Origin: Gamsiella multidivaricata
Taxonomy: Eukaryota > Mortierellomycota > Mortierellomycetes > Mortierellales > Mortierellaceae
Length of the DNA: 64,000 bases
Assembly (NCBI RefSeq): GCF_025024155.1
Contig: NW_026251782.1
Span: 113,784 to 177,783, forward strand
Reading direction: 5' to 3'
The position numbers and the translations under genes are program-made. Under the pieces are notes generated by a model. That model was not told where the DNA came from. It worked only from the letters and a program-made list of their open reading frames with translations, and did no database searches. This document shows, piece after piece, positions 10,721 to 62,274 of this stretch (position 1 is its first letter; each line of letters begins with the position of its first letter).

Positions 10721-12501
10721 TTACTTGAAGACTCCGCTGCCGCCCCACCTCAACGAGGGTCTCATGCCCTTGTGCACAATCTGCTCCAGCACAGAGACGC
10801 CCTCACGATCCAGCTTCTCCAGAATAGTGTTGTACACATGTGGCATCGTTGGTGCCAACACTCCCTTCTCCGGGATCTCGCCCTTCAGCAGCATCTCCGT
10901 CGCCATTGCTGCTGGAAGTCCCACAGTCTTGGCCATGGCCGTGTAGGTCTCGAAGGTACCGTACGAAACCAAGGTCGAGGTACGTGTCTGCTCCGATCCG
11001 TCCTTCAGCTGTACTCCAAACTCATGGTGCAGAATCACCATGTCGCGTTCCAGAGGATTGTACTTGAGCTTTTGCATCAACAGGCTGCAGAAGCTGTCGA
11101 GGACTGTCGGTGAGTTCTTGGCAGTGAAAGGTGCCACTTGACTGTTATTGAAGGTGGGCATCAAATTAAGCCATTGGAGGGCATCAACAGCCTTGTCGAC
11201 ACTGCCGTGGTTCTTGGGGAGGTCGAGGCGATCGGCAATCGCAGCCCTGCGGGACTCGTTGTCGTGATGGGAACCGTTACCAAACAGGACACTGTCCATG
11301 AATTCAGACTAATTCCAAAGAAAAGAACTAGTTAGCAATCGTTCTCAAAATTCTCCGAATCGCTCCTTCTTCCTTTAGTTTGATGACATACCCATGAGCT
11401 GAAGTTCTGCTGGCTGTTTTCAGCGTTCAAGAGTCCCAGCCTGTTGAACGAATACATCAAATCAGCATATCCCTATTTGTCGTTCACATAATAAAACCGA
11501 TGTGAGTGCCATGTCATATTCTGAAGGAGATTAAAGAAAAACATCGCTGGTCCGCTTGCATACCTTGTAGCGCAGGGTTCCTCGGAACATGGTGTCCAGC
11601 TTCTCAACGGGGCCCAATCCATATGTCTGGGCATAGCTCAAGGAGTCGCGGTTAGCAACACCCTCGAGGTTAAATCCTGGATAGATGGGCACATCAGGGA
11701 AGTGCTTCCTCATCAAATCCTTGCCAGAGATCTCGTGGAACCCATTGTGCATCCTGAACTTGGCATCGTTCAGTCCAGCCGTCAACACACCTCGAGGGGA
11801 CCAGCTAAACTTGTAGCTCAGGGGGACGTTTGAGGCTTCAGGAGCAGGCAAACCTCCGCACCAAGACACAAAGGATGTGACTTTTCCGCCCTCGCTCTTG
11901 ACCTCGTCAATCATCTTCATGGCGCTCAAGTGATCGATACCAGGGTCCAATCCGATCTCGTTCATGATCGTAATGCCAGCACGCTGCGCACGCTCATCCA
12001 GATCCTTCATGGCTGGGCTGATATAGCTGGCTGTGACCATGTTCTTCTTCTCCTGAATGCAGTGCTCCGCAATGATGGGGTGGAAGGGTGCGGGGACAAA
12101 GCTGACAACGATATCAGAGTCCTTGACCAACGAGGCCATTTTTGCGTTGTCCTTTACATCCAATGGGACTACCGTGGTGTTGGGCTTGCCCAAAGCAAGA
12201 GATGTGGCCTCAGTCTGAGAGTTACTGGCAATCGTGATGCTGACGTTGGGATCCCTCAGCAGGTAGTCAACAAGAGGTCCAGCCACGAAACCAGAGCCGC
12301 ACAGGAGAACCTTCTTGGGCTTGATGCCCATTCCCACGCTGGTCTCACCAGTAGTGCCGAGGGAAGACTTGAGCTTGGCCAGCGTCTCCTTGGCGTGCGC
12401 GTTCTTCAAGACCTCGCTCAAGCCCTTGTGCGCAGGCTTGAGGGATCCGCTATCTGCAATGGTTGCTCCAGCGAGGACAGGGTGATCGTGGTTGTCGCGG
12501 A

Positions 12502-12537
<36 letters not shown>

Positions 12538-14480
12538 GACAGATGAGTCAGTTTGTCGGCTCTCTTTGTACAAAGCGTTCAAAGAGAGAGTTCAAGGAGA
12601 CATACCAATTCCTTGATGAAGGGGTAGAGCGACTCGCTAAAGTGCTGGCTGCTCTCCAAGGGGAGCTCCGAAGGAAGAATGTCGACGGACATAATCTGGA
12701 CTCCGATAGCCTCAGTATCCTTGTGCTCTCTTCCGTTCACTGCATCCACATAGAAGAATGGATCCTCGATCGAGGTGGCGTGGGACATGAATTCGAAAGA
12801 ACCCTGAGGATGCAGAGAGGATGAACAGATACAGAATATATGTCAGTATGAGCATGTCTCATCTGTGTGGTGCAAGAGGAGAGGGGACAGAAGGGACAGG
12901 GAACTGTGGCACAAGCAGCATTCGTGGCCCCTTACATTGATGTCGCATGAGATGTCAGCAATGCTCAACATCCTGAACTTGTTGGCAGGATCGCTCTGGA
13001 CAGTCTTCAATTGCTCTGTGGTCATCAGGCGAGGGTACCGGTGATCCCAATACGCGCCGTTGATGACCATGGACGAGTAAGGCGCAATCTCCTTGTGGAA
13101 GACAGAGGTGAACTGCTCAGGATGGGCAAAGTACTCTTCAGCAGTTGTGAACTCATTCTTGGTCTTGTGGCGAATATGGTCTTGGATATTGACCTCTGCA
13201 GCATAAATGCGATCCAAGCGGGCATCTATTGGAGTGAATATTAGGTGAAAGCGTTAACGACATGCATCTCTTGCAAATATAACGCAGGCCCTGTCCATTT
13301 TGAGCAGCTTACTCTTGCTGGTAGCAATCTTGGCGAGATCCTTGGGATCGACAAACTCGTGGGGGAGTGACTTGAAGACGGCCTGGGCTCCCTGGGAAAC
13401 ATTTCCGCTTCCAGTGAATGTAAAGATCATGGGTCCGAATTCCTTGGGAGTGCCCTCGTCTGCGATGGTGTTACCCAGAGATTGGAGCGCAAGCTTCGCA
13501 GAGGCCAGGGACTTGTAGTTGTGTGCCATACCCACATGCTGTCAGATCACGATGAGGAGGGGTTGTCAGTAACTACTTTTGCAGATCACAATCACAAAAA
13601 TAAAAATAAAACCAGGGAGCGGGCATGGCATGACACCTAATTGTAGCAACATACCAGGAAGGGGCTGCTGTAGCCGAGACCGAGCAGTCTTTGACCCAGA
13701 CCATGGACTCCATCGATCATGCCAGCGTAGCCGGCATGCTTTCCAAACAACACCAAACGCTGCTTCCTTTCATTAGCCATCAGCTCATAGTCGATGAGGC
13801 GGATATTCTATAACCATCAATGTACAAAGTAATCGTTAATGGAATGTGTTCAGCACTTTTCTCCAATGCATAAGACGATCACGGACAGACATCGAAATGA
13901 ACTATAGACATACTTTGTCGAGGACATCCTGCAACATGGGCATGTTGTACTCTTGACCCTTATGCGTGTGTGAAAAATAGACATAAGTCTTGCCGGGGAG
14001 CAGATCCTTGATGGGGACCTCTTTGATTCCCAAGATGATATCCGCAGGCGAAAGGTCCTCCTGGACAATCGCTCCTGCAGCACGATACTTGTCATCTGAA
14101 AAGATGCGCTTTGTGCTCGGTTGAACATAGACCTTGATGCCCGTCTCCTTGATTAGTTTTTCAACGGCCTCGGGTGTCAGGGCCGCACGTCGTTCCCAGC
14201 GATTCTTGCCTTCTCGACGGATTGCAATGGACTTGTATGGGTTCAGGGAAGTGGTGTGCTTTTGGTATTGCTGATGCTGATGCTTCAGGGGCGCTTGGCC
14301 ATGCTGCTGGATTGTTGGGATCGACTGTGGGAAGTAGGTCTTGTCGGAGGCGACTGAAGATGACGACAGATGGCGTCTTGCGGAGGAAGAGGAGGATCGA
14401 CGGATGTGGGAGGAGAGATGGCGGGCGGTGGCGCTAAGACGAGGCAGGACCTTCGAAGCCAGAGATGCTTGCGATGACAT
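10721..14480 (-). CDS. AASS: Bifunctional lysine-ketoglutarate reductase / saccharopine dehydrogenase
   Basis: Fused enzyme of the saccharopine pathway: the N-terminal half interconverts lysine plus 2-oxoglutarate and saccharopine, the C-terminal half interconverts saccharopine with glutamate and aminoadipate semialdehyde. Eight exons join in phase: 14480-13914, 13807-13655, 13538-13313, 13225-12936, 12803-12606, 12502-11564, 11472-11392 and 11308-10721, giving 1013 residues. The reductase domain (about 80-480) begins with the alanine-dehydrogenase-like block SIAIRREGKNRWERRA. The dehydrogenase domain starts with a dinucleotide-binding loop GSGFVAGP at about 547-554 and contains NEIGLDPGIDH and WCGGLPAPE. 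The first 70 residues are rich in Ser, Arg and Ala and look like a mitochondrial presequence. Ascomycete yeasts make these activities as separate Lys1 and Lys9 proteins, so the fused form is notable. Intron 5 carries a 28-base T run on the sense strand. Confidence 0.95.
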
Positions 14481-15595
14481 GGCTTTCTTTATTATCGTAC
14501 AAGGGAAAATGGGATGGGGAATTGGATACACGCGACTCGACTGGACTCGACTCGAAAGATAATACACAGAAAGACTATGGGTGAGGAATGAGAAGCGTGG
14601 CGAATGAGACGGAATGAGGAATGGCGAGTAGAGAGAGGAGGGATGAGGAAACAAAAGAAGAAGAAGAAAAGTAGAAGGAAACGAGCAGAGGACACCTTTT
14701 AAAGCGGAAGGGAGGGGCGAAGAAGGCGGGGGACATGCGTGCTGCCTCTCCACCTCAATAAACCAGTAGCGGATCACCTCTTCCCCACATTGCCACACCT
14801 TCCCCATAGTCTTCCTTTTTCACCATTCATCGGCATCGTCGCTGGCATTCGTCCTTGTCTCTCCTCTTCCAGGAACCATCCAGGGTGTGTGTGTGTGTGC
14901 ATCGGCATCAATGGAACATTGCCCTGGGGCAGAGATGACACCGAGGGGCACAGAGGACGAAAAAGCACCCGTGTGAAAAAAACGAGGCTCCTTCCTTTTT
15001 CGGCATCACCCCGTTTAAGGTTCATGTGAGAGTACGTCGTGCATGGTACCATGGCAAAATATAAAAAAAAACTCGCTTCGCTCCTTCTTCCCACACCCCC
15101 AATTGAGGAAGTGGCAGACAAAGGAGCCAGGACATGTAGGGGAAGGACTTGCTCCACTCCGCCAGGCACCAGCATACGCCAGTGGGTCTGTCCTGTAGCC
15201 CGGTGTCTACGCGCATCCAGGCCCCCAATGCTGGTGCTCCCCCCTGTGGATGTGGGGGGAGAAACGAATTACATCCATTGTTCAGTGCCTGAGCCATGTG
15301 ACCAGGCGAGAACCTTGTCCTGTCTTCCAGCCAATCAGGCCCACCTGACCCCCCAGGCTTTAGTGCCTACCCCCTCGCGGCCAAAGTGCTCCAGTCCGTC
15401 ATCTTTACGGAACACGGCTCCCCTGGCTAGGGATGCATGGCCATGTCTGTCCACCAGCTCAAGCGCACCGCAGTCCACTCAGATTTTGTTTATTCTCTTT
15501 TGTCCTCATATCTGCCTCGAGCACCAGCGGAACAGGTACCACCACCAAGCTACGTCCTGCCAGTCTCCTCCCCCATGTCCCTTCCTCTATACCTC
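14481..15595. other. Intergenic: AASS promoter and protease 3' region
   Basis: GC-rich sequence with a TG microsatellite at about 14886-14899. Several open frames exist on both strands but have no domain signal and no codon pattern, so none is called. The proximal part should be the AASS promoter. Confidence 0.5.
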
Positions 15596-17077
15596 TCAAG
15601 CCAGGGCCGCAAACCCGACCCGCTCATACCCTGGCCTCGAAAAATCAAATACCGTGTAAACGCTCCTCAAGAATGCCGTCCCCAGCAGCACGGGTCCGGG
15701 TGAGCTCCCAAACACCTTTGCCTGACACATCCCAGGCAAACCACCGCTCGTCCCCAAATCCGACTTCTTCACCCATTCCTCATACGGAATCCGATACACG
15801 GCCCCTCCGATCCCCATACAAAACTCCAAAGTCCCCTCACAGGGAACTCTCCAATACCCATTCGCGAGCTGCTTTGACCCCGGAACCTGCTTGAACAGTG
15901 CATCATACATCTCTCGTGGGAGATAGATCCCATCAGACCCTGAATCGATCACCGCATACGATCCATCCGACCCCGGCACTGTCCACGTCGTCCCCACCAC
16001 GCTCGCAGAGGTACCGGCATCGCGCAACAGCAACCCTCGATCAAGCTGTACTGCCCAATCATACGGACTCGGCCCTCGATCCGACCACCGGATCTCTCCT
16101 CGGAACTTTGCCCTATCCACCGCATTCAACAGCAGCTCTCCACCTTTTCCTCGCTCCATCGATCCACTCAACCAAAGACTCATAAACCCCATCCCTTTCG
16201 TCCCATCATCCCAAATCCTCAACCCACTCGAGGCAGGGTATGCCTCTCTCGACAGCGTCGAGGAAGCCAGATGCTCGGCCTCTTGAAGATTCTGGACCAC
16301 AGTCGCCGCAATAATCGGACTCTGAAGATTCAACCCAATGATCCCATCGACTCCTGCGCCATAGGACTTGAACAGTCGTAATCCCGGTTGGTCAACTACC
16401 AGCACCGTTTGGTCCTTCACCTCCAACATAGTTTCCATCTCCATCCCCATCCCGGTTCTGATCTTAGTATCTGTACCTGCCAAAGTTGCGGTCCCGGAAC
16501 TAGAAACAAACCGGATCGTATCACTGACCAATGACCCATTCGCGACCGTCCCATCCCCGTAGAGCTGCGCCCACCTATAGGTACCCGTCAACCGATTCTG
16601 GGTCGGCCTGGCCGTGATCGACGCCGAGGCGTTATACCGATGGCTCATTGACACACATTCTGGGTATTTGCATTCTGAAGACACGACTACCACCAGGTCT
16701 GAACCTGTGTCGACCAACAGGTTGAAATGCTCTTGCTGATGCTGTTGTTGCCCGGGTTGTGTAGTGGAGCGGAAGGTGCCGAGAGAGAAGGTGGCCGTGT
16801 AGCCGTATTCCTTGGGGACCGTCGTCAGCGAAACCTGGACCACGGGCTCTGTGTGTTCAACCGACATTGTTGCGCGTCTGGAGAGAGCTGAAGGCGAGAG
16901 CTCAGTACGATGAAGTGAAAACCGGACGACGGCCTTGGAATCCAGATCTGAAACGTCCGGGTAATGGATGCCAATGTTGCTGTTGCTACCGAGAGGACTG
17001 TGTGGCGATGCGAGAAAAGGCGTCAGGAGTAGTAGCACCGTTGCCAGAAGCGCGAAGACCCTGGTGGTTGGTATCAT
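15596..17077 (-). CDS. Secreted pepsin-like aspartic protease (A1 family)
   Basis: Single-exon gene of 493 residues. The start chosen (MIPTTRVF) gives a clean signal peptide with a leucine-rich core (about residues 6-23); an upstream in-frame ATG would bury it. The two catalytic motifs are DTGS at 123-126 and DSGS at 378-381, and the flap region reads YGDGT at about 173-177. A propeptide probably ends at the paired Arg near residue 68. The catalytic domain is of normal length and ends with GYERVGFAALA, the usual last strand. No GPI-anchor tail is visible, so the product is probably secreted and acts in extracellular digestion. It is transcribed divergently from the gene at 17642. Confidence 0.92.
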   Translation of the reverse strand: MIPTTRVFALLATVLLLLTPFLASPHSPLGSNSNIGIHYPDVSDLDSKAVVRFSLHRTELSPSALSRRATMSVEHTEPVVQVSLTTVPKEYGYTATFSLGTFRSTTQPGQQQHQQEHFNLLVDTGSDLVVVVSSECKYPECVSMSHRYNASASITARPTQNRLTGTYRWAQLYGDGTVANGSLVSDTIRFVSSSGTATLAGTDTKIRTGMGMEMETMLEVKDQTVLVVDQPGLRLFKSYGAGVDGIIGLNLQSPIIAATVVQNLQEAEHLASSTLSREAYPASSGLRIWDDGTKGMGFMSLWLSGSMERGKGGELLLNAVDRAKFRGEIRWSDRGPSPYDWAVQLDRGLLLRDAGTSASVVGTTWTVPGSDGSYAVIDSGSDGIYLPREMYDALFKQVPGSKQLANGYWRVPCEGTLEFCMGIGGAVYRIPYEEWVKKSDLGTSGGLPGMCQAKVFGSSPGPVLLGTAFLRSVYTVFDFSRPGYERVGFAALA

Positions 17078-17641
17078 CGTTTTGTTTGTTCGTTGTTTCA
17101 ACAGACGGTATGTGGAAGGGAAACGAGCCCTGAGTGTGCGTGCAAAGAGGTGAAGGAAAGAAGCAAGCAAATAAAAAGAGGGAATGGTCGAGTCTTTGCC
17201 TCTGATGCTATTTTACATTCGTTTATCGCTATATTGAAATGCAATCTATCAGCAATAAAGAAAAGTGTTGATGAGGAGCTCACTTTATGGAGTCTTTTTT
17301 TCAACAGTGCGTGGAAAAAAAAAAAAAAAAAAAAAAAAGAATGGCGACGGATCAACCTGTTTCTCTCTCTTTTCTCTCTTTTTTGTGATAGTCATCGTGA
17401 TATATCCCAGAAGCTGCAGCACAGCGCAGCTATCTCTCGTGTAGTTTACTATTCTTTTCCATACGTCTCAGTCGCGTCGCGTAAATAGTTTGAATTTTTT
17501 TATTCCGAGAACGGGCGTTTTTTTGACTGGGCGGGGACGTGTTTTGGTGGCGCTTTTTCATAATTTGGTGGCAACCAACCCTTACTCCTCCCCTCCCCCA
17601 CGCCAGAATCTCCATTCAACACACACATCACACCTCCAACC
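17078..17641. promoter_or_regulatory. Divergent promoter region between protease and unknown gene
   Basis: About 560 bases between two divergent start codons. It contains an A tract (about 17318-17338) and pyrimidine-rich sequence before the + strand start. No specific operator-like site was recognised. Confidence 0.45.
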
Positions 17642-18737
17642 ATGACCAACCCCGGAGACATCAGCAACAATAACAACACCAACTCCCACACCGAAGCAGT
17701 GGCCGCCTGCCGATGGATGGACACCGTGATCTCCACTCCCGAAATCAACCAGGCCATCTTCACAGACACCATCGACCTCTTCCCCGACGCCGTCCTCCAC
17801 AACGCCCACGCCTACGCCTACGCCCGCTGCAGCTCTTCTCAGAGACCACAACAAGGAAGTCATCGCACTCAAAAACCGCTCAAAGAGATACACTCCAAGC
17901 TACAACAGGCGTTCTACCAGGCTCAACAAGCTCTCGCTCTTGTGGCTACTGAGGTAAACAAAAAACAAGCACACATGGACAGAATGTACCGCTCGAACAC
18001 GGATTGTCTATCTTTCTTCTCTTTTTCTTTATTTTTTCTCACTGCCGATACTGTCTTCTCTATCTTGGCCCTCTCCTCTTGGGGGAGGTTTTTTTTTTTT
18101 TTTTTTTTTTTTGTTTCTGGGTCCTTTTTTGTCGTACGAATAGACCCCGACCTGGAAGACCGCGTCCTCATCAAACAAATCACTCACGCTCGATCCCACG
18201 ACCTTGGATGCCTTTGACAAAACAACCGCACATCTCCTCGAAGCCCTGACCGATTTCGAAACCATGTTTGCTCGAGACCTCTCGCCCCATCTCATAGAAT
18301 ACCAGCGTCGTCATCGTCTCCATTCTGGGGCCCTACACGAACAGGATACCATCCCAGGTAAAGGCCTTGGCCCTGGCCTTTTTTTTTTTTTTTTTTAACA
18401 AAAAAAAAACAAAACTCTTCTAATTGATCTGCTAAAATATCGCTTCTTTCGTATGTCTATGTATATTTATATAGGCCTCGGTGAAGAGGCACGCTCACTA
18501 GTCTCGACACAAGACTCCCTCCTCCAGATGTTGAACAGCCTCCAGACCCTGAAACGCTCCTTCATGGCCTTAACCGATCCATCTTTACCGTCGGGACTCC
18601 ACCAGACCCTTGCCCACGCAAGAAAGGATTTGCTCCGCACCTCGTCGGATGAACCAGACATCCAGACCATGCTCGACAGACTATCGGCCATGTCCATGAC
18701 TCTCGAACGCACTCTTCAGCGCATACGGGGGACCTGA
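17642..18737 (+). CDS. Unrecognised three-exon gene, helical protein
   Basis: Exons 17642-17953, 18144-18357 and 18475-18737 join in phase to give 262 residues. No domain was recognised. The N-terminus is Asn/Thr rich, followed by long stretches that look helical and partly coiled coil (LKEIHSKLQQAFYQAQQ, and leucine-rich segments in exon 3). Both introns have GT-AG ends and sense-strand T runs (about 18091-18112 and 18380-18396), like introns of recognisable neighbours, which supports the model. There is no signal peptide or membrane segment. Around 17820-17850 another frame also looks protein-like, so a local frameshift cannot be excluded. It converges with the PARP-RING-DTC gene 210 bases downstream. 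Confidence 0.7.
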
Positions 18738-18947: not shown

Positions 18948-21516
18948 TCACACGCGAAAGAGCAATGGCTGATCCTTATGGAATATCCGTCTCAGCCTCT
19001 CATCCTCCGCCAGCTCCTCCACAACCTCCGCCGGCAGCAACACCTCTCCTCCTAAAACTCCACCCTCAGGCACAGGCACATCCGTCCCATCCGGTAACGG
19101 CATCCCCAACAAAAGCTCCTCCAACCCCTTGGCGATGCCCTTCTTATTGATCTCCTCCCAACATGTCTTCTCAAAATGCGGTGCTGGGAACCCATACGCC
19201 CCCGTCATGGCTGTCCTCAAATGGACTCCATTCCACACTACAACATTATCGACCCCCCTCGTCACCGACCGTCCAACAGCGAATAGATGTCCATAATAAA
19301 ACAAACAGATCAATCGGATCATTAACAAGGGGCCCATCCGTGCCGAGAAAGGAACGACCGCGTAGCGGGTATCCGCCCTGACCTCGACCTTCGACCCAGG
19401 CGGGGCCTGGGGGTCCGGGTTCGGGATCTTATGCGAAGGTGTCATCACGTAGATGAAATAGCACCCAAGTCGGACATCAAAGAAGTAGCCCATCGTACTA
19501 TCCGGCATTGGTCCCAGCTTCAGCAGTTGGTTCCTTTGCATCGTACTCTTAGTCAATCCGTCCCAGGTTTCGGTCGTGCACATCACACTACACATCGGAC
19601 ACCTGAGCTGTGAATTCTCGAACTCGAACCACGGCTGAATACATCCCTCTAAATGGAAGCAGTGCCGACAACTCTTCAGCTTTACCACCGTCTCGGAAGC
19701 GGCTGTGCTACCGGGTTCGGGGAGCTCGAGCGCTTCCTTACAGATCGGACAGTTCGGAGCTTCGGACGTCCCTGACGATAGAGACGAGAGCATATCCGGA
19801 TCTGCCGCAACGAATAAGCTCAGCAGACCCGTGCTCCGCTGATCCAACTCCTTCTGCCGCTCCTCCCTCTTGAAAACCACTGTTCCGGACCGGCTCGACA
19901 GGTCCTGGATCGAGCTTGGAATGCTTGGGTCTAGCTGACCCCACTGTTCCCGAAAAAATGCCCCCAAATCCATGTCCTGCAACAGATTCTGCGGCGGCAC
20001 CATGTCCGTCCGACCCTGGCCCTGAGCTTGACCCTGAGTCTGCCCAGAGAGTCGATTGAGCCTCCAATCCCGCTTCCGGATCCGATTCTCCTTCTCCAGA
20101 AACAACCACTCCACATAATCCGTCATATAGAACATCCGCCGGTTCGGCAACCTCTGTCTCGGACAGAGCGGCCAGAACTCCGCAGACGCAACCTCGGCCT
20201 GGAACAACTTCTTTGCTGCATATTCCCACCAGGCCTCGCCCTCGTCCGGAATGTGGCCCCAGGGTTTGGAACAGTTCGTGAAGTTCAAGGTCTTGTTCGT
20301 CCGCCCCAGCTGGTTGAACATTGCCTGCGGCAACAGGAACTCGGCCACGATCTGCGGCCACACCCTTGCGGTCTCTGTGCGTACCTTCACCTCCTTGGTC
20401 TGAAATCCTTGTTGCTGCTGCTGCTGTCTGTTCCCGGTGTTGTTCGCGCTCGCGGCCCGTTCATTCGCATCGCGAGCCCGCTTCGCCAGCAAGAGCCTTA
20501 AATCTAGCTCCTGTTTCGTAGCACGCACAAACAACCCATTCGCTTGATTCCTCAACCTTGATTTCTCAGCGTCAATCGCCTCCTGCTGTCTCGTTTGGCT
20601 CTGCAAATCCCCCTGTACCTTCCTCTCCATCCCCTTCTTCATCTCCAACGCTGCGTATGCGCTATCAATTTGACCTTGGGTCCACGTCTCATAAAGTGGC
20701 TTTGTTAACTCGCTATTCCTCGTGACCAACTCCTTCAGCCGTTGATCATACAGACGAATCCTTTGCTGACGCTCATTACGCTCTTGCCAGCTGGCCTGTT
20801 GCAGGCTCGCCTCGAGCTGTCGCAGCTGCAGCAGCTCTTGATGATAGGTCACTCCCTCCGCATTGATTCGCTGTAATTCTGGTTCCAATATTGCCATGGT
20901 CTCCAACAGCCTATTCGCATCCCTCACCCCTGAGAGCCTGGCCTCAATCAGGTTCCGGTCCACACGCATCGTTTGTAGGGTCCTCTGCTGAGCATCCCTC
21001 AGTCGTTGCTCGAGCACCTCCACATTCTTTGCCGCCAACAGCAGCATCGCGAGATTCGTGTCCTTCACATAGCAATAACAATCCGTCGTCGTCGACGTCA
21101 GAGTCTGAGCCTGAGCCTGAGCCTGAGCCAGAAACTGGAACTGACCCTGGGTCAGAGTCTGCCTGAACCAAACGGCGCACTCCATGGACTCTGTAAACTG
21201 GATCTCGCACACCTTGGCCGAATTCGGCGTTATCCCTAGGACGTTGTAGAGCAGACTCGAAAGCGGACCATCCGGATCGTGCCACGTCCGCAGTTTCTCC
21301 ATCGCACCCTGTTCCTGCTGGCATTCAGCAGGGTCCTTTGGGACGGTGACGGTAATCAGGGGCGGGGTATCGTGGATGTTGGCAGTTTGATGCGCGATGC
21401 CGCGGGAGAGGACATAGTGGGCGCCCAATCGGTAGAAACTATCGGCCCGGTTCGTCGCCGTGAAGTTGATCACACATAGCGGCAGGATCTGCGACTTTTC
21501 GAACCTATGGATGTCG

Positions 21517-21547
<31 letters not shown>

Positions 21548-22561
21548 GAAAGAAAGAGAATGGGGGGAAAGAGGTAGAAAGTTGGTTAGTTATTTGAAAG
21601 AGCTGATATATAGAGTCGATATACAAATTCCCTAGAAAAAAGCAAATAAAAAAAATAATAAAAAAACGACATACACAATCCACTCCTTGTAAGCATCATA
21701 CGCGACCGCAGATTCAAAGCCCTCCGGCACAAACATCGTATAGTGCCCCAACTTCCTCTCCTCCCTCTCATGGGGCTCGACCATCAACCTGCCCAGCAAC
21801 ACACAGCACAACACGATCGAGAACTCTTGGTCGAAGCTCGTCTGTGGGTCCACATACTGCATACACTTCTCAATCGAATCCGAGAAGTAAACGCCCTTGC
21901 CGTAATTCGCCCGGACCGTCATTCGAGGGTCCAGTCCGTTCAACAGTATGGACCCGACCCGGTCTTGACGCGTCCCATGGAACAATACCTCGTCCCGAAA
22001 CAGCCACTGCGGGTCCACATCATTTACCCCCTTTCCCACTGTTGCCGCCGTCGTCGCCCGTAATCCTGTTCCTGTTCCTGTTCCTGTTCCTGTCGAGGTT
22101 GAGGTTGAGGTTGACATCGCCATCGACATCCTAGTCTGAGCATGAGCTTGAGCCTGTTGGGCCGCAATCTGTCGTCGGAGCTGCTTCTCGGCCTGGTACC
22201 TCATCCAGATCACCGGGTTCCTGAGCAGGTGCACGCTCTTGATTTGATAGTCCGTCTTGTCGTGCGCATGGCTATAAAACTCCTTCGCGATCTTCCCACA
22301 CGGGTCTGGATGGAGCACCGGGTCCAAATTCAGCAGGAGGTTCTGCAATGGCTGAGAAGATCCTTGGCCCGGCTGTGAAAACCCTTGGGCCATAGGGGCG
22401 GGTTGCTGTTGCAGGACCTGGGGGAAGGAGGACATGGTCGTTGGGTTGGTTGGACGTTCGACTGGGATGGCCTGGGTCCTTTCGATTTCGGGTGGACAGT
22501 TCTCGAAGAAGGGGCGGAACAGGTCCGAGAACTCGGTGGAGCAAGTCTGGATGAGCGGCAT
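18948..22561 (-). CDS. PARP - coiled coil - RING - Deltex C-terminal domain fusion
   Basis: Two exons (22561-21675 and 21504-18948) join in phase to give 1147 residues. Residues about 85-315 form a PARP catalytic domain: the triad is H195 (LFHGT), Y225 (GKGVYFS) and E293 (KEWIVF), the H-Y-E form of enzymes able to transfer ADP-ribose. The single intron falls between E293 and the following conserved strand. Residues about 450-640 are a long glutamine-rich coiled coil. A RING finger follows (C881, C884, C908, H910, H913, C917, C931, C934), and directly after it a Deltex C-terminal domain (about 955-1090; VGRSVTRG, VVVWNGVH, GFPAP). RING plus DTC is the Deltex E3 ligase module, which binds ADP-ribose or NAD and can ubiquitylate it. 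The fusion implies coupled ADP-ribosylation and ubiquitylation in one chain. Repeats STSTSTGTGTG and AQAQAQAQ are low-complexity linkers. No signal peptide or membrane segment is seen. Confidence 0.88.
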
Positions 22562-23517: not shown

Positions 23518-25519
23518 TCAATCGTCCTTAAAGCGCTTGCCAAGGGCGGGTGAGGAAGCACCAGAGACAAAGGACCGGGGCGAGGTTGGGCGCGAGGACG
23601 AACCAGAGTGCATGGACTCTGTCTCGACCATCTCCGCGGAGTAGTGCTCAGCCAAGGGACTGGGGCTGTTTGGCGACGATCCAGACGACGCACCCCTCAA
23701 CTCCTCAAGCACCAGACGACTCGGGCGAGATCGTCCCTTCGCCGCCACCCCACTGAGGCTCATCCCAGCAGTAGCATCCTCCTCGATGATCGTCAGCGAT
23801 GTCATGTTCAACAAGGAGCTGCGTTTCGAGGACGATCCCGAGGATGAAGACGACGACGACGACGACGACGAATAAGATAAGCCTTGCACCATAGCGACGT
23901 TGGTCTCCTGATCCAGATCCAATGTCACGACAGATCCAGCAACAGAGTGCACTGATTCACGACTCATACGACCATGGCGAACATGAGTGACCGAATCGCG
24001 AGGCGAGGACGTGGGCGAGGGGCGAGGGGAGGTGCGGGGGGAGTTGACGGTGACCAAGACCTCGACCAAGGACTCGTATCCTTGCCAACCATTCCAGCTC
24101 TGACGGTACGAAGCATTCTTCTTCTTTGGTGCCGCAGATCCCGAGGTCGGCGAGGACGGGGCGGACGACTGTAACAGCTTGTGCTCCTCCATCTCGGGCT
24201 CGATAGAGACCACAACGACCTTGGCCATCTCCATCCCCCTCTCCTCGGTTGACTCCTCAATGTTGTCACCATCCTGACCCCAGTCCGTGTCCTGCTTGAA
24301 TCCCACAAAGTCGTCATCATGTGCGCTATCAAAGAGGGTCTGTTTCTCCTGATGATTCATAGCATCGCCCAAATCGTGGATCACATGAGAAGCCTTGGCG
24401 TTGTGGTGCTGAGGCAGGACCGAGGGCAAGAAAAAGGATCCGATCCAGAACGCAACGACCGCGTATCCCGCACCTCCGACCAAATCGACGACGTAATGGT
24501 GTCCGAGGTACATGGTCGCCCACCAGATCCAGAAGACGTATCCGACCACGAAGGGGATAGAGCGTGGGCCAAAGATGTAGACGAGGAAGAAGGCCAGCTG
24601 CCAAGCACAGGCCGAGTGGAGCGAGGGGAAGGCGCCAAAGACGAGGGGCGAGGCCGTGAACGTGGACTTGTACATGTTTGTGCCGAGGATATCATCGACG
24701 CGTGCGAGTCCACCGGGACTGCCGGGCATCGAGTATGTCGCCGGCTTGAAGCTTCCGTAGTTTGTCTCGTACCCTGGTAAAATAAACGAAAAAGAAAAAG
24801 AAAAAGAATGGGTGCTGCGTGTGAGAGCCCTGCTGCCAAGGAGGATATATATACATATAAAGAAACCACTAGTCCAGACTCTATTCTGGCTAAACAAAGG
24901 ACCGATTTGAGAAAAAAGTGTAACACTTACATGGTGGAGCACAGGGAAAGAGGATTTGCGTGAGCACACCGGCGAGGTTCATGTAGCCAAAGGTACGGGC
25001 AAAGACAGGCAGGGTACCGGGACGAGCAAAGTAAGCGATCATGGCAGCGGTGATGAAGGGCAACGCAAAGTGGAGCACACCGTAGGGCATCCAGGCCAGA
25101 AGATCCTTCAGGGGAGTGGTCTCCTGTGCAAGCAGCTCGGAGATGTTGCCGCCGTAGAGGATGTTTTCAAGTGCAGGCAGGACAGAGGTGAAGATGTGAG
25201 GTCTCCAGGCTGCGGGGATAAACCGACAGCAATAGAAGAGGACCAGCCAGGCCGCAATAGCGGAGAAGGGCAGCATGAACTGGCGGGTTCTTCTGGGGAT
25301 GAGGAGACCGAGGGCGGTGAGGGCAATTGGGAGCTTGAACCAGATGGGTTTGTCCATGATGTAGTAGCAGAAGGAGAAGAGGGTGGCGAGGAAGAGGTAC
25401 TGGAGGTCATAGAGGGTGTAGCGGTGGTTCCGGAGGGGGGCGATGGTGGAGAGGGCGGCGGCCTTGAGGCCGGAATGGGCCCTGCGACACCGCAGAGAGA
25501 GGTTTGTGATCGAGGGCAT
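23518..25519 (-). CDS. AUR1: Inositol phosphorylceramide synthase catalytic subunit
   Basis: Golgi membrane enzyme that moves phosphoinositol from phosphatidylinositol to ceramide; essential in yeasts and the target of aureobasidin A. Exons 25519-24931 and 24773-23518 join in phase to give 614 residues. The junction creates the Trp of the family motif CAPPWYE (about 193-199). The PAP2-type catalytic motifs are FPSLHS (245-250, catalytic H249) and GHHYVVD (287-293, H289 and D293). Six or more hydrophobic segments are visible between residues 40 and 320. The C-terminal 280 residues are Ser-rich and low complexity with a run of serines, longer than in yeast, and probably cytosolic and phosphorylated. 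Confidence 0.95.
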
Positions 25520-48610: not shown

Positions 48611-51600
48611 TCAATTACGGGCACGTCGTTGCCTTGTATAGGGGCTTTGCCTCTGTGTTGGCGTTTTCTTCTGCGACTTTGATTGCGAATCTTTCTGCTT
48701 CTTTGTCTTGTCTTCTGGTGATGCATGCTTATTGCCGTGCTTTTTCCAGTATTCTCGGATGCATTGTTTTTCTACGAAATGTTCTGCAGGCTCCCAAGTG
48801 CATTCCTTGTCGGAAAAGCCCTTCCATTTGGTTCTGTACTCCCACTCCCCCTTTTTAGTAGGATGTGGACGGTGATGGAGAATTTTCTCAACCTCGTAGG
48901 TTTTCGTTTCACCAAAATCTTCGAGAACAAGTTTCAGTTGAGAAGGAGCGTACTTTCGTCCAAGCAGGGCACCTGTGCCATCTTTTAGCTCGTATGCGCC
49001 TCCAGTTGATCGGCGTATTACGGTATAAGGTCCTTCGTAACGAGGGGATAGCTTGTCGCCTCTGATAGGGTCGAGGGTCATGACCTTCGCGCCTTCAGGG
49101 AAATCGTTATGCAGAATGGTAGCGTTAAATCGCTCAATCATTTTTCGTTGTGTTTCCTTAGACTTCTTGTCAATAGCAGGAAAGACGATTGTTGTCATAT
49201 ATTCAAGACGTTTGCAGAGTTCGTCGTGGGTAAGCATTTGATCTTTGTCATTCGAAAAGTTATGGAATCCATTAAATTTGCGTGCAAAAAATAAAGAGAA
49301 CGGCGATGGGTTGTGCAAAGCAACTATGCGTGTGTTCATTGCTAATTGCGCCATGGGTACGTGTTCGTCCCGGGTATCGCTTTTTTGTTTGAACTCTTTC
49401 TTTATAATGTCCACAGCAACCTTGACATGCCTTTCAGCAACGCCATTGCCGCGGGGATGATACGGAGTGACCAAACGGTGTTGGGTGCCCATTTCAGTGC
49501 TGATAGTATTCATGAGAGCGTTAACAAACTCAGTACCGTTGTCAGATTGCAAAACACGGGGAAAACCAATGAGACAGAATATGTCAAAAAGGGCACGTCC
49601 GATGGTGATCGCTTGCTTATCGCGTATTGGTTTCAGGAACACGAAGCGTGTGCACACATCGACTAGAATCAGCAGGTATTGATGACCATTAACTGAAGTG
49701 GGAAGTTTCCCTGCTAGGTCTATTGCCATATGTTCACCAGGCAATTGTGCGTGGATGGCTTTCAGAGGGTGATAACCTTTTTGAGCAATATTGTAACGTT
49801 GACATTCCGGGCATTTCTTAACCCAAGTCAGGCAATCATCTGCTAGACGAGGCCATGTAATATGATCGGCATGAATGTTTTTCACCATGACGTTCGTACC
49901 AAAGTGACCAAGAGAATGGGCTTTGTCCAATATCTCTTCACGTTGTTTTTCATCGCTTATGACCTTGTAAGGATTATCCTCATTTTGCAGGACATGCATG
50001 TATGCGTTGATGATATGTCCTTTACTGGACTCGTATCGGTTATGCATGGATGCGGGGAACAATCGTGATAAGTGATCAGGTAGGACGTTCATGACACCAG
50101 GTCTATACTCGACTTTGAAGTCATAGCTGAGGATTGTTTCATGCCATCCAGTCAGCATCGAGTTCATTTCTTTTTGAGTATGAATGAATGTGAGTGCACG
50201 ATGGTCTGTAAATAGAGTGAATGACCTACTCCACAGATAGTAATGGAATTTTGTTAGAGCAAACACAATGCCTAGTATTCTTTTTGTGTTGCAGAATATC
50301 GGCGTTCGCGCTCTTGAAGAGATCTCGCCATGAATGATATGTATTGCTTTTCCCATTTATTCTTTTTCTCGTTCCGAGTTTGCTGATAGAGGACAGCGCC
50401 AATGCCAACGTTGGATGCGTCTGTTGCGACATAAAATGGCTTCGAGAAGTCCGGAAAGTGTAAGATAGGTGCACCAGCAAGGAGTTTCTTGAAGGTGTTG
50501 AAGGCTTCTAGTTCTTCTCTATTCAGCTGGAACGGCTTTGTTACGTTGCGCAGTTTGTCTAATGGAGCAGCTAGTGTGCTAAATAGCGGAATGTACTCGC
50601 GGAAAAAATTGAACGTTCCCATATAGGATTGAATTTGTGTGTTGGTGGTAGGAGGAACCCACTGATCAATATTTGCTAATTTCATTGGATCGATACGCTT
50701 GCCTTTCAAGTCGATGACGAACCCAAGGAGTACAATTTGGGTGGCATAGAAATGAGACTTCTCCTGGTTGATAATGAGCTTTGCTCTAGTTAATCGTTCA
50801 ATTACGCATTTCACTTGTTCTGCGTGTTCTTCCCGCGTTTTTGAGAATATGACAATGTCATCAATAAATATAAGGACAAAAGGCAGGTCGCCCAGGATTC
50901 TAGTCATTCCTCTTTGGAAGATACTTGATAGCGGTTTGAGCCCGAATGGTGCTCTGCAGAACATATATTGCGTTCCTCTATGCATGAATGCAGTTAAAGG
51001 TTGATCATCTTTGTCCACTGGCAGACGGTGATACGCTTGCGTTAAATCAATTGTGGAGTATACTGCATGGCCTCCGATTTGTTGCAAAATATCGGATATC
51101 AATGGCACTGGATGATTATCGTCTGGTAGTAATTTGTTCAGTGGACGCGGATCAAGACAGACACGCCATTTTGTTTTGTTGCCCAGCAAGTCTTTCTTTG
51201 CAGCTAATGTCAAAGTATTATTATGAGGGTTTCCAGCTGGGGCCGTGGTGATCACGCCATCCTTTAGCCATTTTTCGACCTGCTCATTAAAGATTTGTTG
51301 TTGCTGCTCGGCGAACACGCGCGGTCGTCTAAAAAGCGTTGTGCCTCTGGGAACTCGAAGAGAAACTCTCATCTCTGGTAATGGACAATGGCTCGAACGT
51401 GGGATCTCATCGTTTTGCTTGAGTGCAGCCGTTATTGTGGTCAAGAAGGCTGTCTTCTCTTTTTTGTATTCTTCGGTCAGTTCTATCGCCGGTATTTTTA
51501 GAGGCAAAATGGAAGGTCGTTCATCGTCGACTGGTCGAGGCAGGCTTTGGGCTGACTCGCGTCCGTCGGAGATACCTCCCATAGAGAAACCAAGTTTGTG

Positions 51601-51723
51601 GAATAAATCCATCCCAATGACAAATGAGTGCTGCAAATCAAACACCTCAAACGCTGATGTTAAGCAGTGGTTATTGCACTCGATTTCGATGTCTTCGGTG
51701 CTTCCGATACGTGCGACATGCAT
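48611..51723 (-). pseudogene. Element A pol: RT, RNase H, integrase, chromodomain (frameshifted)
   Basis: Reverse transcriptase lies in 50272-51723 with the catalytic box FIDD (usual Y replaced by F) and STIDLTQAYHRLPV, followed by the start of RNase H. The frame stops at 50272 and continues in another frame to 48611, with an overlap around 50270-50300 that is explained by the loss of one base in an A run. The downstream part has RNase H (LFTDHRAL), the integrase zinc domain (H...C-P-E-C), the DDE core (AIDLAGK, QSDNGTEF, then the E after the N-G-V segment) and a chromodomain (TKWKGFSDKECTWEP). The chromodomain places it among chromoviruses, which target heterochromatin. It is inactive. Confidence 0.9.
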
Positions 51724-51734
51724 CTCTTTATGCC

Positions 51735-53606
51735 CTAGATATATATTCCTTGTGCATTGATGACTTTGATACGAGCATCGTCCACGATTGAGCGGTCAAT
51801 AAACGACCTTGATGCTCCTGTGTCGATAAGCGCCTCATACTCGTTGTTATCGAAGTAGATGGGCATGATAATTCTGCGTTCGTTCGTGTCATGGGTAGAC
51901 ATAGCAGTATATGCAATGGTTTCAAAGTCGTTGAGTGATGAATTTTCTAGGGTCATGCTCTCGAGATTTATATCGAATTGCTCAATTTTATTATCTTTAT
52001 CTTCTGATACCGAGTCTGTCAAGTGCGCGATGTTCACAAATTCATCGTCAGCTATTTGCTGGTACTGGTCTTGCTCCGAGCTATTTGTCTTTGAAGAGCA
52101 GGAAGATGATAATTCGTTCAGTGAGATGTATCTCTTATTTTCGTTTGCATTTGGAGTGCGGGTGGCATGATACACACCTTTGTCACCATGAGGGCTACGA
52201 TCATTGCGCGGGCGGTAGCCGTCCCGATTGTAGGGATGGTGACGACCGTTATTATCTCGGTTACTGCTGTCACGAACGCTGTGGTCACGATTGTTGTCAC
52301 GACTGTTGTACCGACTGTAGCTGTCTCGACCGCGGTCACTGCGACCATTATTACGGGAAGGGCCACGCTGGTTGTCGAGCTTGCGACAGGTATGCTTCTG
52401 GTGACCAGCTCGTCCACAGTGCTCGCACTCGATGTGCTCCTCACTGGAGTGGTGTCTGTAGTCCTTGCACTTGGTACAGTAAGACATGCTGCCAGCTTTC
52501 TCCTTACTGTTTCTGCCATTACGGCTTTGTGCTTTGACGTCTCCTTGATCACGGAGGGAGCTGCTTGGGAGCTCAAAATCATCTCTAGCATCATCGGGTC
52601 CAACGATCTTGCCAAGGGCGGTGCAAAAATCATCGATCGTCTCAGGCGTATCGCGAGTGGTACCTTGATTAGTGTAGAGGTAATGCAGGTTGACATTGGT
52701 CATATCCTTGGCTGGGATGGCTTGTCTGAGTAGGGTCAAGATGACACCGTTGTCCTCTTGGATGCGATACTGTTTCACGATGCGCGCAATTCGAGTGGCA
52801 AATAAGCGGTAGGATTCTCCTTTGTGACGGCCGATTTTGGTGACCTTGGCCACGCTCTTTTCTCGCTGTTCTTTCGTGAGACAGACGTCCAGGAATGTTC
52901 GCTCCATGATGTCTCGAGTGATGACATTTCCTTCGAGCTTGTCGAACGCGGTTTGCAATTGGTCTTGAAAGTTGTTATCGCTGACCAGTAGGCTCAGGTA
53001 TGTATGACCATATTGCCTGAATATTTCTTCCCCTAGGATGGGACGGACTTGACGAATGAACTTGTCAAAGAATTCGTATGCGGTTTCATCAGCCTTTCCG
53101 TTGTACCTTGGCCAGTTGCTCTGTAGCTTAATCGGCAATCCTCCAATGAAGGACTTCTGGTTTCGACGGATGGGCAGGGACTGGTAGTCATCGCTCGCCT
53201 CATACACGGTGCTTTCTTTCGCCACGATTCTGGGCTTTAGGGGCGTCATGGACTCGGCCAAGTTTTCATAAGCTTGCTTGAGCTCGCCGTAGCTGCCGAA
53301 CGTGATGCTACGTTGCATTTTGAAGTCTGACAATTCTTGGGTAAGCTGCGCATTGGGAATGCCACAGTCTCTGGCAGCGCGCGATTGGAGTCGCAAAATG
53401 TTCTTGTCCATTCGCTTCAGATTCAGCCGCATGTTTTCGAGCGTGCTTCTGGCCATTTCTAGTTCGCTTTCGTTGTCCGTGTCTTCTTCGGTAAGGCTTT
53501 CATCGATCGAAGCATCATAACCTGGGACGGATTCATCAGCGTTGATAGCGGTCCTCTTCTTGAACGAGGGTAGACGAGAAGGAATACAATCCTCATCAAC
53601 GTCCAT
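51735..53606 (-). CDS. Element A Gag and protease start
   Basis: 623 residues. A Gag-like helical region spans about 150-340. Two Cys/His motifs follow: C377/C380/H385/C394 and a CCHC knuckle C394-C397-H402-C407, then an Arg/Asp/Asn-rich low-complexity stretch. Near the end the retroviral-type protease motif DTGAS (about 598-602) begins, but the frame stops soon after. The following pol frame is offset by an extra AT in an ATATAT run, so this element cannot make a full Gag-Pol unless it frameshifts. Confidence 0.88.
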   Translation of the reverse strand: MDVDEDCIPSRLPSFKKRTAINADESVPGYDASIDESLTEEDTDNESELEMARSTLENMRLNLKRMDKNILRLQSRAARDCGIPNAQLTQELSDFKMQRSITFGSYGELKQAYENLAESMTPLKPRIVAKESTVYEASDDYQSLPIRRNQKSFIGGLPIKLQSNWPRYNGKADETAYEFFDKFIRQVRPILGEEIFRQYGHTYLSLLVSDNNFQDQLQTAFDKLEGNVITRDIMERTFLDVCLTKEQREKSVAKVTKIGRHKGESYRLFATRIARIVKQYRIQEDNGVILTLLRQAIPAKDMTNVNLHYLYTNQGTTRDTPETIDDFCTALGKIVGPDDARDDFELPSSSLRDQGDVKAQSRNGRNSKEKAGSMSYCTKCKDYRHHSSEEHIECEHCGRAGHQKHTCRKLDNQRGPSRNNGRSDRGRDSYSRYNSRDNNRDHSVRDSSNRDNNGRHHPYNRDGYRPRNDRSPHGDKGVYHATRTPNANENKRYISLNELSSSCSSKTNSSEQDQYQQIADDEFVNIAHLTDSVSEDKDNKIEQFDINLESMTLENSSLNDFETIAYTAMSTHDTNERRIIMPIYFDNNEYEALIDTGASRSFIDRSIVDDARIKVINAQGIYI

Positions 53607-53617
53607 GTCTCCGACAT

Positions 53618-53808
53618 TGCAAATAGTCAGGAGTCGGAGGGGTTCTAGGGTGGAATCAGAGGTTTATTCGATGATTGATTGCTGTCTAATCCTACGTTTG
53701 AAGGGCTCTTATATACTAGACACAGTTGTGTTGGAATGCTCTATAAACTAGGCGCAGCATGGTTATGACCATGACATCATTCTCGAATAAACAGTTGTAC
53801 CTGTTGCA
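53618..53808 (-). repeat. 3' LTR of element B
   Basis: 191 bases, ends TGCA...TGCA. The first 93 bases are nearly identical to the surviving part of the 5' LTR (59517-59610). AATAAA-type motifs occur inside. It also directly abuts the coding end of element A. Confidence 0.88.
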
Positions 53809-53831
53809 CCTCCCCATCTTAAAAAAAAACG

Positions 53832-54926
53832 TTACTCCTTTTCACGCTTGGCCTCGAACTCTGCTAGGGCCTCCTTAGCATTGACCAATGACGCCTTTGG
53901 CTCCCAGGTTGCCTCTTCCAGTGGGTATCCTTTCCATTGAACGAGCCATTTAGGTGTCCTATCAAATATTTTGTGATCCAGAATGCGTTCTACTTCGAAC
54001 TCTTCTTCTCCATCAATGAGCTCCGGTGAAGGTCGAGGCGGTATGCGATCGCCGAACTCAGTTGGTGACTCGGTGTAAAGACGGAGCAAATCGGCATTGA
54101 ACACAGGATGTTGGTGCATATTGGGTGGCAGGTCGATCTTGAATGCGTTGTCATTGACCTGCTCGACAATCCTGTAAGGGCCGATATATCGCGGTTCCAG
54201 CTTTCTTGAGGGTCGATTGGCATGTGCTGCGACCGAGAGGTGTTCTGTGCTGAGAAGTACCCTGTCTCCGACGCCGAACGGCACGTTACTGCGGAATTTA
54301 TCTGCTTGCTGCTTCTGGCGGTCCTGAGCAGCGACGATGGCATCCTGGGCGCTAGCGAGAGCAGCCGACTGAGCAGCCACGAAGTCTGAGACTGATGGCA
54401 CGTTGGTGGTGGACGGCTTCAGAAGTGATGCAGGCACGAGAGGGTGGTGACCATGATTGAGAAAAAAGGGCGAAAATCCTGTCGTTGGGTTTACCGAATT
54501 GTTGTATGCAAACTCGAGCATCGGCAAGAACAGATCCCAGTCCTTTTGGTTATACGAAATGTAAGAGCGCAGCATCTCTTCGAGCGTTCGATTGGCACGT
54601 TCCGTTTGGCCGTCCGTCTGAGGGTGATATGCCGTTGACATGTTTAATTTGGTCCCCATCATCTTCATTAATGCCGTCCAGAATTTGCCTGTGAAGCGAG
54701 AGTCGCGGTCCGAGACGATGGCGCGCGGCATACCATGCAAGCGGAAGACTTGCTCGAAAAATAATCGGGCGACGTCGGTGGCGGAGTCCGTGGTATGGCT
54801 AGCACAAAAATGGACCTGCTTGGACAACTTATCTACAATGACCGTGATCGCATCGACTCCACGGCTTGTTTTGGGAAGTGACACGATGAAATCCATGGAG
54901 ACTGTATCCAATCGCTGGCTCGGTAT
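53832..54926 (-). pseudogene. Element B pol 3' part: integrase core and chromodomain
   Basis: The integrase core has VSMDFI, IVSDRDSRFTGKFW and the Q-T-D-G-Q-T-E-R-A-N segment with its catalytic Glu, then a GPY/F-like module (PRYIGPYRIV) and a C-terminal chromodomain (LVQWKGYPLEEATWEP). The open frame starts with about 14 codons supplied by the solo LTR, then joins the element sequence at about 54926. It is separated from the rest of pol by that LTR. Confidence 0.9.
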
Positions 54927-55683
54927 TGCGGTGTAGGGGTCTACTAACGGTTCTATAACTTCTACCATTAGTTCTATTTACAACAGGAGTTACCACGCGA
55001 ATAGGACTTCGGCAAGGCTGTGCTTCGGTCACTTACTGGTTCGTGGTGCAGGTCCTCCTTTAGATCGGAATGTAAGAACACAAAGGTAAAATAGACTAGA
55101 CGTAAATGGAAAGGAATAAATATGGGGATCTGTTTAGCTAAATGGTGCGAGCTAGGACTATATTCCTTTGGGAATGACTGGGGTAGTTGCAAGGAGTTCG
55201 CATATTGTGATGTCCGATGAGGTGAGGAGTCGTGACAATGAAGTCCACCCTCTGGAGTCGTTGTATGCCAATAGTTGCTGATCAGGCCTCCGTTGTACCT
55301 TTATAATGCCGTTTCACGAGGGTGGGCCGATGACGGATGCTCAATGAGACGATCGGTAATCGGGAAGCGCTGCGGGGCAAGTACAATGTCTAAATAAGAG
55401 CGATTGACGGCGCAAAGGTGGCGAATGATCAGGATCGGCATTCCCTGTTGATTGTATCTCGTTGCATGGGTTGCTGACGGTGGTAGTCAGTACCTGTCGT
55501 TGATGCGGTGTTATCCGGACAATCTGGACGAATACAATGTGTGATACAAATGATTTTGGTGAAAGAAGACTCTGGTTCAGGTACCAGACCGTTTATTCTT
55601 TTATTCTGGGGGCGGTGCTCTTCCCCGTGATCTAATATTAACTTTGCAAGAACAACCAACTGATTCTCATTTACTACACCACA
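54927..55683. repeat. Solo LTR (757 bp) inside element B integrase
   Basis: Ends TGCGGTGTAG and CTACACCACA form an imperfect 10-base inverted repeat and begin and end TG...CA. The 4-base target duplication GTAT flanks it (54923-54926 and 55684-55687). Removing it brings the two pol segments back into register. The head is related to those at 32099 and 43357. Confidence 0.88.
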
Positions 55684-58060: not shown

Positions 58061-58084
58061 GCGTTTGTTGCTGTTCTTGGTGGA

Positions 58085-58265
58085 GGGAAGGGATGAGGTC
58101 GAGGAAAGGGATGAGGTCGAGGAAAGGGGTGAGGCGAGGAATGGGGTGAGGTCGAGGAATGGGATGAGGTCGAGGGAAGGGATGAGGTCGAGGAAAGGAA
58201 TGAGGTCGAGGAAAGGGAGGAGGTCGAGGACTGGGGGGAGGGTGAGACAAGGGGTGAGGTCGAGG
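58085..58265. repeat. 18-bp minisatellite between gag and pol of element B
   Basis: About nine imperfect copies of GATGAGGTCGAGGAAAGG. On the coding strand it reads as Pro/His/Arg or Ser/Thr repeats depending on frame. Confidence 0.85.
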
Positions 58266-58445
58266 TTAGAGGTGGAGTCAGGAGAAGGGGTGAGGGGGCA
58301 ACTGGTTTGGTTGTCAGGGACGAAGTTCTATCGTGAGCATGGTGAAAATCGTTGTCTTTATTTGTTTCATTTTGCTCAGAGTAGCGACCGCGTCCATGTC
58401 TATCCAGGGTTTGTAGGCATGGCGATCGGGCGAAGCTGGCCTGGC

Positions 58446-59426: not shown

Positions 59427-59504
59427 GGTTTGACAGGCTGGATGAAAAAGCTTATGGTTCAATGGTTCAATGGTTCAGTGGTTTCGAGGGGTGGTTCGAG
59501 GTTT

Positions 59505-61904: not shown

Positions 61905-62107
61905 TGCAACAGGTTTATGCTCGGTTAAGTGCATTATGATGTCATCAGCGCTTCGCCCATCTTTCTACGACTTTCTAGAACACTGTTGCTATCTATCCAG
62001 CCAGTTTATATAAACCCCATCCACACGTAGAACTAGACAGCAGCATTGATACGAATAAAGCCTCCTTTCCACCCTAGATCCACTTCCACCTGATTTGACC
62101 GTTTGCA
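61905..62107 (+). repeat. 5' LTR of element D
   Basis: 203 bases starting TGCAACAGGTTTATGC and ending GTTTGCA, the same ends as elements B and C. A TATATAA motif near 62007 could be its promoter. Confidence 0.82.
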
Positions 62108-62108
62108 T

Positions 62109-62120
62109 TGGTAGCAAAGG
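62109..62120 (+). other. Primer-binding site of element D
   Basis: TGGTAGCAAAGG, one base after the LTR end, identical to those of elements B and C. Confidence 0.75.
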
Positions 62121-62142
62121 TGCCTTTCGATCCACCCCAGAT

Positions 62143-62248
62143 ATCTCAGACACCAGACACCCCAGACACCTCAGACACCCCAGACACCCCAGACGCCCCC
62201 AGACACCCCCAGACACCCCCAGACACCCCCAGACACCCCCAGACACCT
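62143..62248. repeat. AGACACCCC tandem repeat in element D leader
   Basis: About ten imperfect copies of a 9-10 base unit between the primer-binding site and gag. Open in several frames, but probably untranslated leader. Confidence 0.85.
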
Positions 62249-62274
62249 CATTACCTACCACTCGAACCAGCATC

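Follow-up and report, generated by a model that had tools for sequence, protein, structure and literature searches.

A minus-strand gene of Gamsiella multidivaricata, a fungus of the Mortierellomycotina by its taxonomy record, encodes a protein of 1147 residues that carries a PARP catalytic domain, a RING-H2 finger and a Deltex C-terminal (DTC) domain on one chain. The parts are known; their combination, PARP with RING-DTC, is new as far as we have searched. The protein is probably a single-chain, two-step writer of the ADP-ribose–ubiquitin mark, both activities being predicted from the sequence. Positions given below are those of the window, by which we mean the whole stretch of 64,000 nucleotides that was analysed.

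The gene runs from 22561 to 18948 on the minus strand and has one intron. Exon 1 (21675–22561, −; 887 nt) opens with an ATG and encodes the N-terminal region together with the larger part of the PARP catalytic domain, including all three triad residues (H195, Y225 and E293). The intron (21505–21674, −; 170 nt, GTATGT...CATAG) is in phase 2 and falls at the third codon past the triad Glu; its G+C content is 26%, against 70% and 69% at the third codon positions of the two exons. Exon 2 (18948–21504, −; 2557 nt) is a single open frame that passes from the last PARP strand through a middle region, the RING-H2, the DTC and a C-terminal tail to the stop codon. The segment FEKSQILPLCVINF, which aligns with the end of the PARP12 catalytic domain, is encoded by exon 2 and is in uninterrupted frame with the RING and DTC. 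The spliced translation is identical at every residue to the database protein P0001 (‘hypothetical protein BC939DRAFT_495935 [Gamsiella multidivaricata]’), and the first Met is conserved in 37 of 41 aligned proteins. Three database models (P0019, P0023 and P0037) are shorter and start near the position matching the exon 1/2 boundary, which a missed exon 1 would explain.

Because the intron interrupts the PARP fold and the last PARP strand shares an exon with the RING-DTC, an origin in two separate genes is strongly argued against, as a separate PARP gene would be without that strand. There remains a negligible chance that the model wrongly joins two adjacent genes: some database models of the family are visibly mis-joined to their neighbours (P0002, P0003 and P0039), but the PARP domain would be incomplete without exon 2, and 36 of the 43 proteins of the family, drawn from many species, have both PARP and DTC. 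The single two-exon gene, read in phase, that the original prediction had proposed is thus upheld by the identity with P0001 and by the PARP fold that spans the intron, and the two separate genes that it had named as the outcome that would speak against it are contradicted by that fold together with the same domain order in many species.

Several other features lie around the gene. Downstream is an aspartyl protease gene (15596–17170, −; PF00026, 2.2e-27), and the models of two relatives continue from the C-terminal end of the fusion into an aspartyl protease. As these run-on models go with a protease downstream in the window, they suggest a conserved gene order with mis-joined models and not a real fusion. 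Between the two genes, on the opposite strand, are open frames without a credible Pfam match (17642–18737, +) that are perhaps a small multi-exon gene, and upstream is an open frame like a PAP2-family phosphatase (23518–24969, −; 3e-13). Further away, domains of saccharopine dehydrogenase, together with the N-terminal domain of alanine dehydrogenase/PNT, occur in adjacent open frames (11531–14807, −) that are perhaps one lysine-metabolism gene, and retroelement frames of Ty3/gypsy type (gag, reverse transcriptase, integrase and chromodomain) occupy 48611–59462 (−) and 62095–63234 (+).

All three domains are recognized by Pfam above their curated cut-offs. The PARP domain (PF00644) is matched over residues 103–260 (21782–22255, −) at 8e-14 and 52 bits (cut-off 26.7), the RING-H2 (PF13639, zf-RING_2) over residues 880–934 (19590–19754, −) at 1.6e-6 and 28.7 bits (cut-off 27.3), and the DTC (PF18102) over residues 998–1086 (19134–19400, −) at 4.1e-10 and 40.4 bits (cut-off 25). 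The DTC match covers positions 45–133 of the 133 in PF18102, and the conserved stretch starts at about residue 955. From alignment columns the RING ligands are presumed to be C881, C884, C908, H910, H913, C917, C931 and C934. In sequence searches of solved structures the RING-DTC exon alone found DTX2 (1.2e-8), DTX1 (2.5e-7) and DTX3L (7.7e-6), and a profile of the family found DTX2 (7.4e-14), DTX1 (4e-13) and PARP12 (2e-6). Chance matching is ruled out by the Pfam scores and by the existence of 42 relatives. A PARP domain with H195, Y225 and E293 and a RING followed by a DTC had been read from the letters alone; the triad positions and the domain order were confirmed, and the DTC, whose absence from an HMM search had been put forward as grounds for abandoning the idea, is present in the 1147-residue product.

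The PARP side was harder to place at its far end, and this counts somewhat against the two-step writer. Codons for H195 (21977–21979, −) and Y225 (21887–21889, −) lie within the Pfam match, which stops before E293 (21683–21685, −), and exon 1 alone found solved PARPs weakly (PARP4 and PARP1, best E 0.0054). The placement of E293 comes from the profile alignment to PARP12 and from an alignment to the other PARP of the genome, a very short stretch scoring below threshold (−0.3 bits) in which the NEYIVYD motif of that PARP faces KEWIVFE of the fusion. Residues ∼141–183 form a low-complexity insert within the PARP region, with a conservation of 0.42. In the middle region (∼320–860) Pfam gave nothing credible, only two weak matches far under cut-off. 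Residues 441–650 have many helix-forming residues and few Pro or Gly, a composition that makes a coiled coil plausible, and an RRM- or KH-like fold of the kind present in DTX3L is conceivable for a stretch near 345–410. WWE, UBCc and U-box domains had no match in the protein (Pfam, E ≤ 1), and NCBIfam, a prokaryote-oriented library, had none for either of the two proteins given to it.

Searches of protein databases with the RING-DTC (37 matches), the PARP side (34 matches) and a full-length profile (36 matches) gave 43 distinct proteins, P0001 included. By Pfam (E ≤ 0.01) 36 of these have both PARP and DTC, six have DTC without PARP and one has PARP without DTC. PF00644 was matched in 31 of 37 proteins in one set and 6/6 in the remaining set, and RING and DTC were both matched in 37/37 and 5/6 respectively, the RING weakly in P0039 and P0041. 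The exception, P0043 (Mortierella sp. 14UC), has 621 residues with the PARP part and neither RING nor DTC, which points to a truncated model or else to a split paralogue. A DTC was present in 34/34 of the PARP-side matches and 35/36 of the full-length-profile matches. Many of the relatives were named automatically in the databases, for example ‘putative E3 ubiquitin-protein ligase dtx2’. All that are named to species are from Mortierellomycotina, three species by taxonomy record and the remaining genera by what we take to be their placement. Some species names have multiple copies (e.g. P0017, P0018 and P0041 of Linnemannia zychae, possibly from differing strains), and P0037, P0038, P0039 and P0041, with 29–33% identity to P0001, seem to form a more divergent set of paralogues. 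The protein searches found no fusion outside Mortierellomycotina at their sensitivity, which is such that distant eukaryotic fusions, including those of other fungi, could escape: shared 5-residue words were needed, candidate length was limited, and with the PARP-side query and full-length profile scoring was confined to the 8000 candidates that had most such words in common. Scans for the fusion in viral contigs (23 pattern matches) and prokaryote genomes (56 pattern matches) gave no confirmed case.

Both halves of the protein are under constraint. Among 28 proteins, over the columns that have at least 14 residues, mean column conservation is 0.80 in the PARP core, 0.74 in the RING and 0.78 in the DTC, and 0.42–0.69 in other stretches. 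The matrices of pairwise distances for PARP and RING-DTC are correlated (r = 0.73, 28 proteins; r = 0.70 for 26 proteins when P0038 and P0041 are left out, a value reached by 0 of 2000 label permutations). This indicates that the two halves are constrained and inherited together, which falls short of proof that they act jointly; simple descent as parts of one gene, or a scaffold role, would also produce the correlation.

Conservation of the active-site residues was followed in an alignment of 41 family proteins (A2; P0042, which has the same PARP motifs by eye, was left out). H195 and Y225 are each present in 35 of 35 covered rows (six gaps) and E293 in 33 of 33 (eight gaps). The segment that bears the triad Glu is absent from P0043. 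RING ligands are conserved in 40 or 41 of the 41 proteins, and the missing C881 (in P0026) and C884 are both gaps. On the DTC side H1057, Y1066 and E1080 align to H582, H594 and E608 of DTX2, of which His582 and Glu608 are reported to be catalytic for ubiquitylation of ADP-ribose and His594 is the third residue named (PMC11460948). H1057 is found in 41/41 proteins and E1080 in 40/41, the sole exception being P0039, a mis-joined model that runs into ribosomal protein L24. The column of Y1066, which is that of an ADP-ribose pocket residue (DTX2 H594, DTX3L Y719), is variable (Tyr in 23, Phe in nine and His in nine of the 41 proteins), a point against the two-step writer.

This protein has Tyr at residue 1066, as does DTX3L at the same position (Y719), and a Y719A mutant of DTX3L is defective in ubiquitylation of ssDNA (PMC11460948). 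A DTX3L-like activity that places ubiquitin on ssDNA or RNA, or on nucleic-acid ends ADP-ribosylated by the PARP half, is nevertheless highly improbable, given the DTX2-like His in nine and the Phe in nine of the 41 aligned proteins and the fact that Pfam recognized no nucleic-acid-binding domain in the protein.

Cys233 (21863–21865, −) occupies the position of the nicotinamide-pocket Ser, a column that we take to be that of Ser904 in PARP1. It is Cys in all 35 covered rows, whereas the other PARP of the genome has Ser there. The Ser is usual in PARPs and not universal, PARP16 being active without it; Cys233 might alter NAD+ handling or the response to inhibitors. This column counts against the two-step writer and in favour of a reading, unlikely in our judgement, in which the PARP half is catalytically silent and serves, as PARP9 is presumed to do, as an NAD+/ADP-ribose-handling or docking module, so that only the RING-DTC would be catalytic and would act on free NAD+/ADP-ribose or on marks made by the other PARP. 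Inactive PARP domains usually lack intact triad residues, whereas here the H-Y-E triad is complete with zero substitutions in the covered rows, and no part of the protein is more conserved than the PARP core. Two further points speak for a silent PARP half, namely that PARP9, with which DTX3L is paired in animals, is described as probably inactive (PMC10810221) and that the genome has a separate PARP1/2-type gene that could be the source of ADP-ribose in place of the fusion's own domain.

That gene emerged from a six-frame, intron-blind census of the 37.5-Mb assembly, in which there were two PARP loci, the fusion gene and the PARP1/2-like gene, and a single DTC, that of the fusion gene. PARG was matched at three places and ADP-ribosylglycohydrolase at two, which together with the PARP loci indicates that ADP-ribose metabolism is present. 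No Macro domain was found in the assembly by this search, which was positive in 8 of 14 control genomes; WWE and HPF1 also had no match, but for these the control genomes were silent as well, which makes the two negatives uninformative.

Since an ADP-ribosyltransferase with a complete triad is present on the same chain as the RING-DTC, the two-step writer is the simplest reading of the protein. Deltex RING-DTC proteins place ubiquitin on the 3′ hydroxyl of protein-bound ADP-ribose (PMC7615817), the reaction runs on a His-Glu pair (PMC12687431), and ADP-ribose is ubiquitylated both by the RING-DTC of DTX3L alone and by PARP9:DTX3L (PMC10810221). By analogy, the N-terminal H-Y-E ADP-ribosyltransferase would use NAD+ to place ADP-ribose on a target, quite possibly its own chain. 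The RING-H2 would then recruit E2∼ubiquitin while the adjacent DTC holds the ADP-ribose, and the His1057/Glu1080 pair would activate its 3′ hydroxyl for formation of the ubiquitin ester. The middle region of ∼550 residues, probably partly helical, might space or oligomerize the two active sites. Turnover of NAD+, the acceptor, mono- versus poly-ADP-ribosylation, the choice of E2, cooperation in cis, the order of reactions and ester formation are all parts of this scheme that we infer. A stronger version is more tentative, and we judge it less likely than not: the protein may be a processive writer that caps each ADP-ribose from its PARP site with ubiquitin within one molecule or oligomer. ADP-ribosylation by this enzyme would then lead obligatorily to a ubiquitin signal in Mortierellomycotina.

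ADP-ribose might instead be a recruitment signal only, in which case the PARP half would make ADP-ribose, the DTC would read it and the RING would ubiquitylate lysines of the same target in the manner of RNF146. The H-Y-E triad is compatible with formation of ADP-ribose polymer. ADP-ribose-dependent ubiquitylation of the RNF146 type, which involves poly-ADP-ribose, is established (PMC7615817, PMC10810221, PMC12687431). We regard recruitment alone as unlikely, slightly more so than a silent PARP half, because the ester-forming His and Glu of the DTC are retained and a pure reader would not require the pair; recruitment and ester writing are not exclusive.

The original prediction had remarked that this architecture was not known to have been described in fungi, and the literature agrees with it so far as it was searched: no fungal PARP-DTC fusion is named in the titles and abstract beginnings of the open literature (few subscription journals and no bioRxiv among them), no paper there treats Mortierella and Deltex together or takes up the relatives of the fusion, and the main texts of PMC12687431 and PMC10810221 contain no mention of fungi or of a fusion. 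In its account of ubiquitin-related domains in PARPs, a 2025 review mentions PARP10 and PARP6/8 without listing a fusion to Deltex (PMC12687431). Current work in animals asks which of several candidate PARP partners makes the ADP-ribose that Deltex proteins ubiquitylate, and whether the two reactions are coupled. That one chain has both domains argues strongly, if circumstantially, for a functional link between the activities. In animals attachment of ADP-ribose and of ubiquitin to ADP-ribose sit on separate proteins, and the fusion may be a natural all-in-one writer of this recently discovered double mark. If active, it would allow the order of the reactions to be dissected with a single component and could serve as a compact means of producing the hybrid mark; if it is also processive, RING-DTC chemistry would exist beyond animals and the lineages closest to them, joined to its own source of ADP-ribose.

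Like the fusion, the Deltex E3s (DTX1, DTX2, DTX3, DTX4 and DTX3L) have a C-terminal C3H2C3 RING followed by a DTC with the catalytic His and Glu, and the RING-DTC linker is short in both, by eye somewhat longer in the fusion than in DTX2. The fusion differs from them in having a PARP domain of its own and in the variability of the H594 position, and from the DTX1/2/4 subfamily in that the N-terminal WWE domains of the latter are not matched in it. It is also fungal, and thereby extends RING-DTC proteins to fungi, contrary to the statement of a 2009 survey that Deltex is holozoan-specific (PMC2770060). On the PARP side it may be closest to the catalytic domains of the PARP10/12/14/15 type, PARP12 being the best profile match among solved structures, although PARP12 has Ile opposite the triad Glu of the fusion family. 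The PARP9:DTX3L/PARP14 assembly likewise brings together an ADP-ribosyltransferase fold and a RING-DTC, but in several chains instead of one; PARP9, moreover, is the member thought inactive, whereas the fusion has the H-Y-E triad, and a macrodomain is matched neither in the fusion protein (Pfam) nor in its genome (six-frame search). Precedents for PARP and ubiquitin-system domains in one chain are the fungal Clade 6A PARPs fused to a C-terminal E2-like UBCc domain and DDB0232928 of Dictyostelium, which has U-box, Macro and PARP domains (PMC2964712); where these proteins have an E2-like domain or a U-box, the Mortierellomycotina fusion has a RING-DTC.
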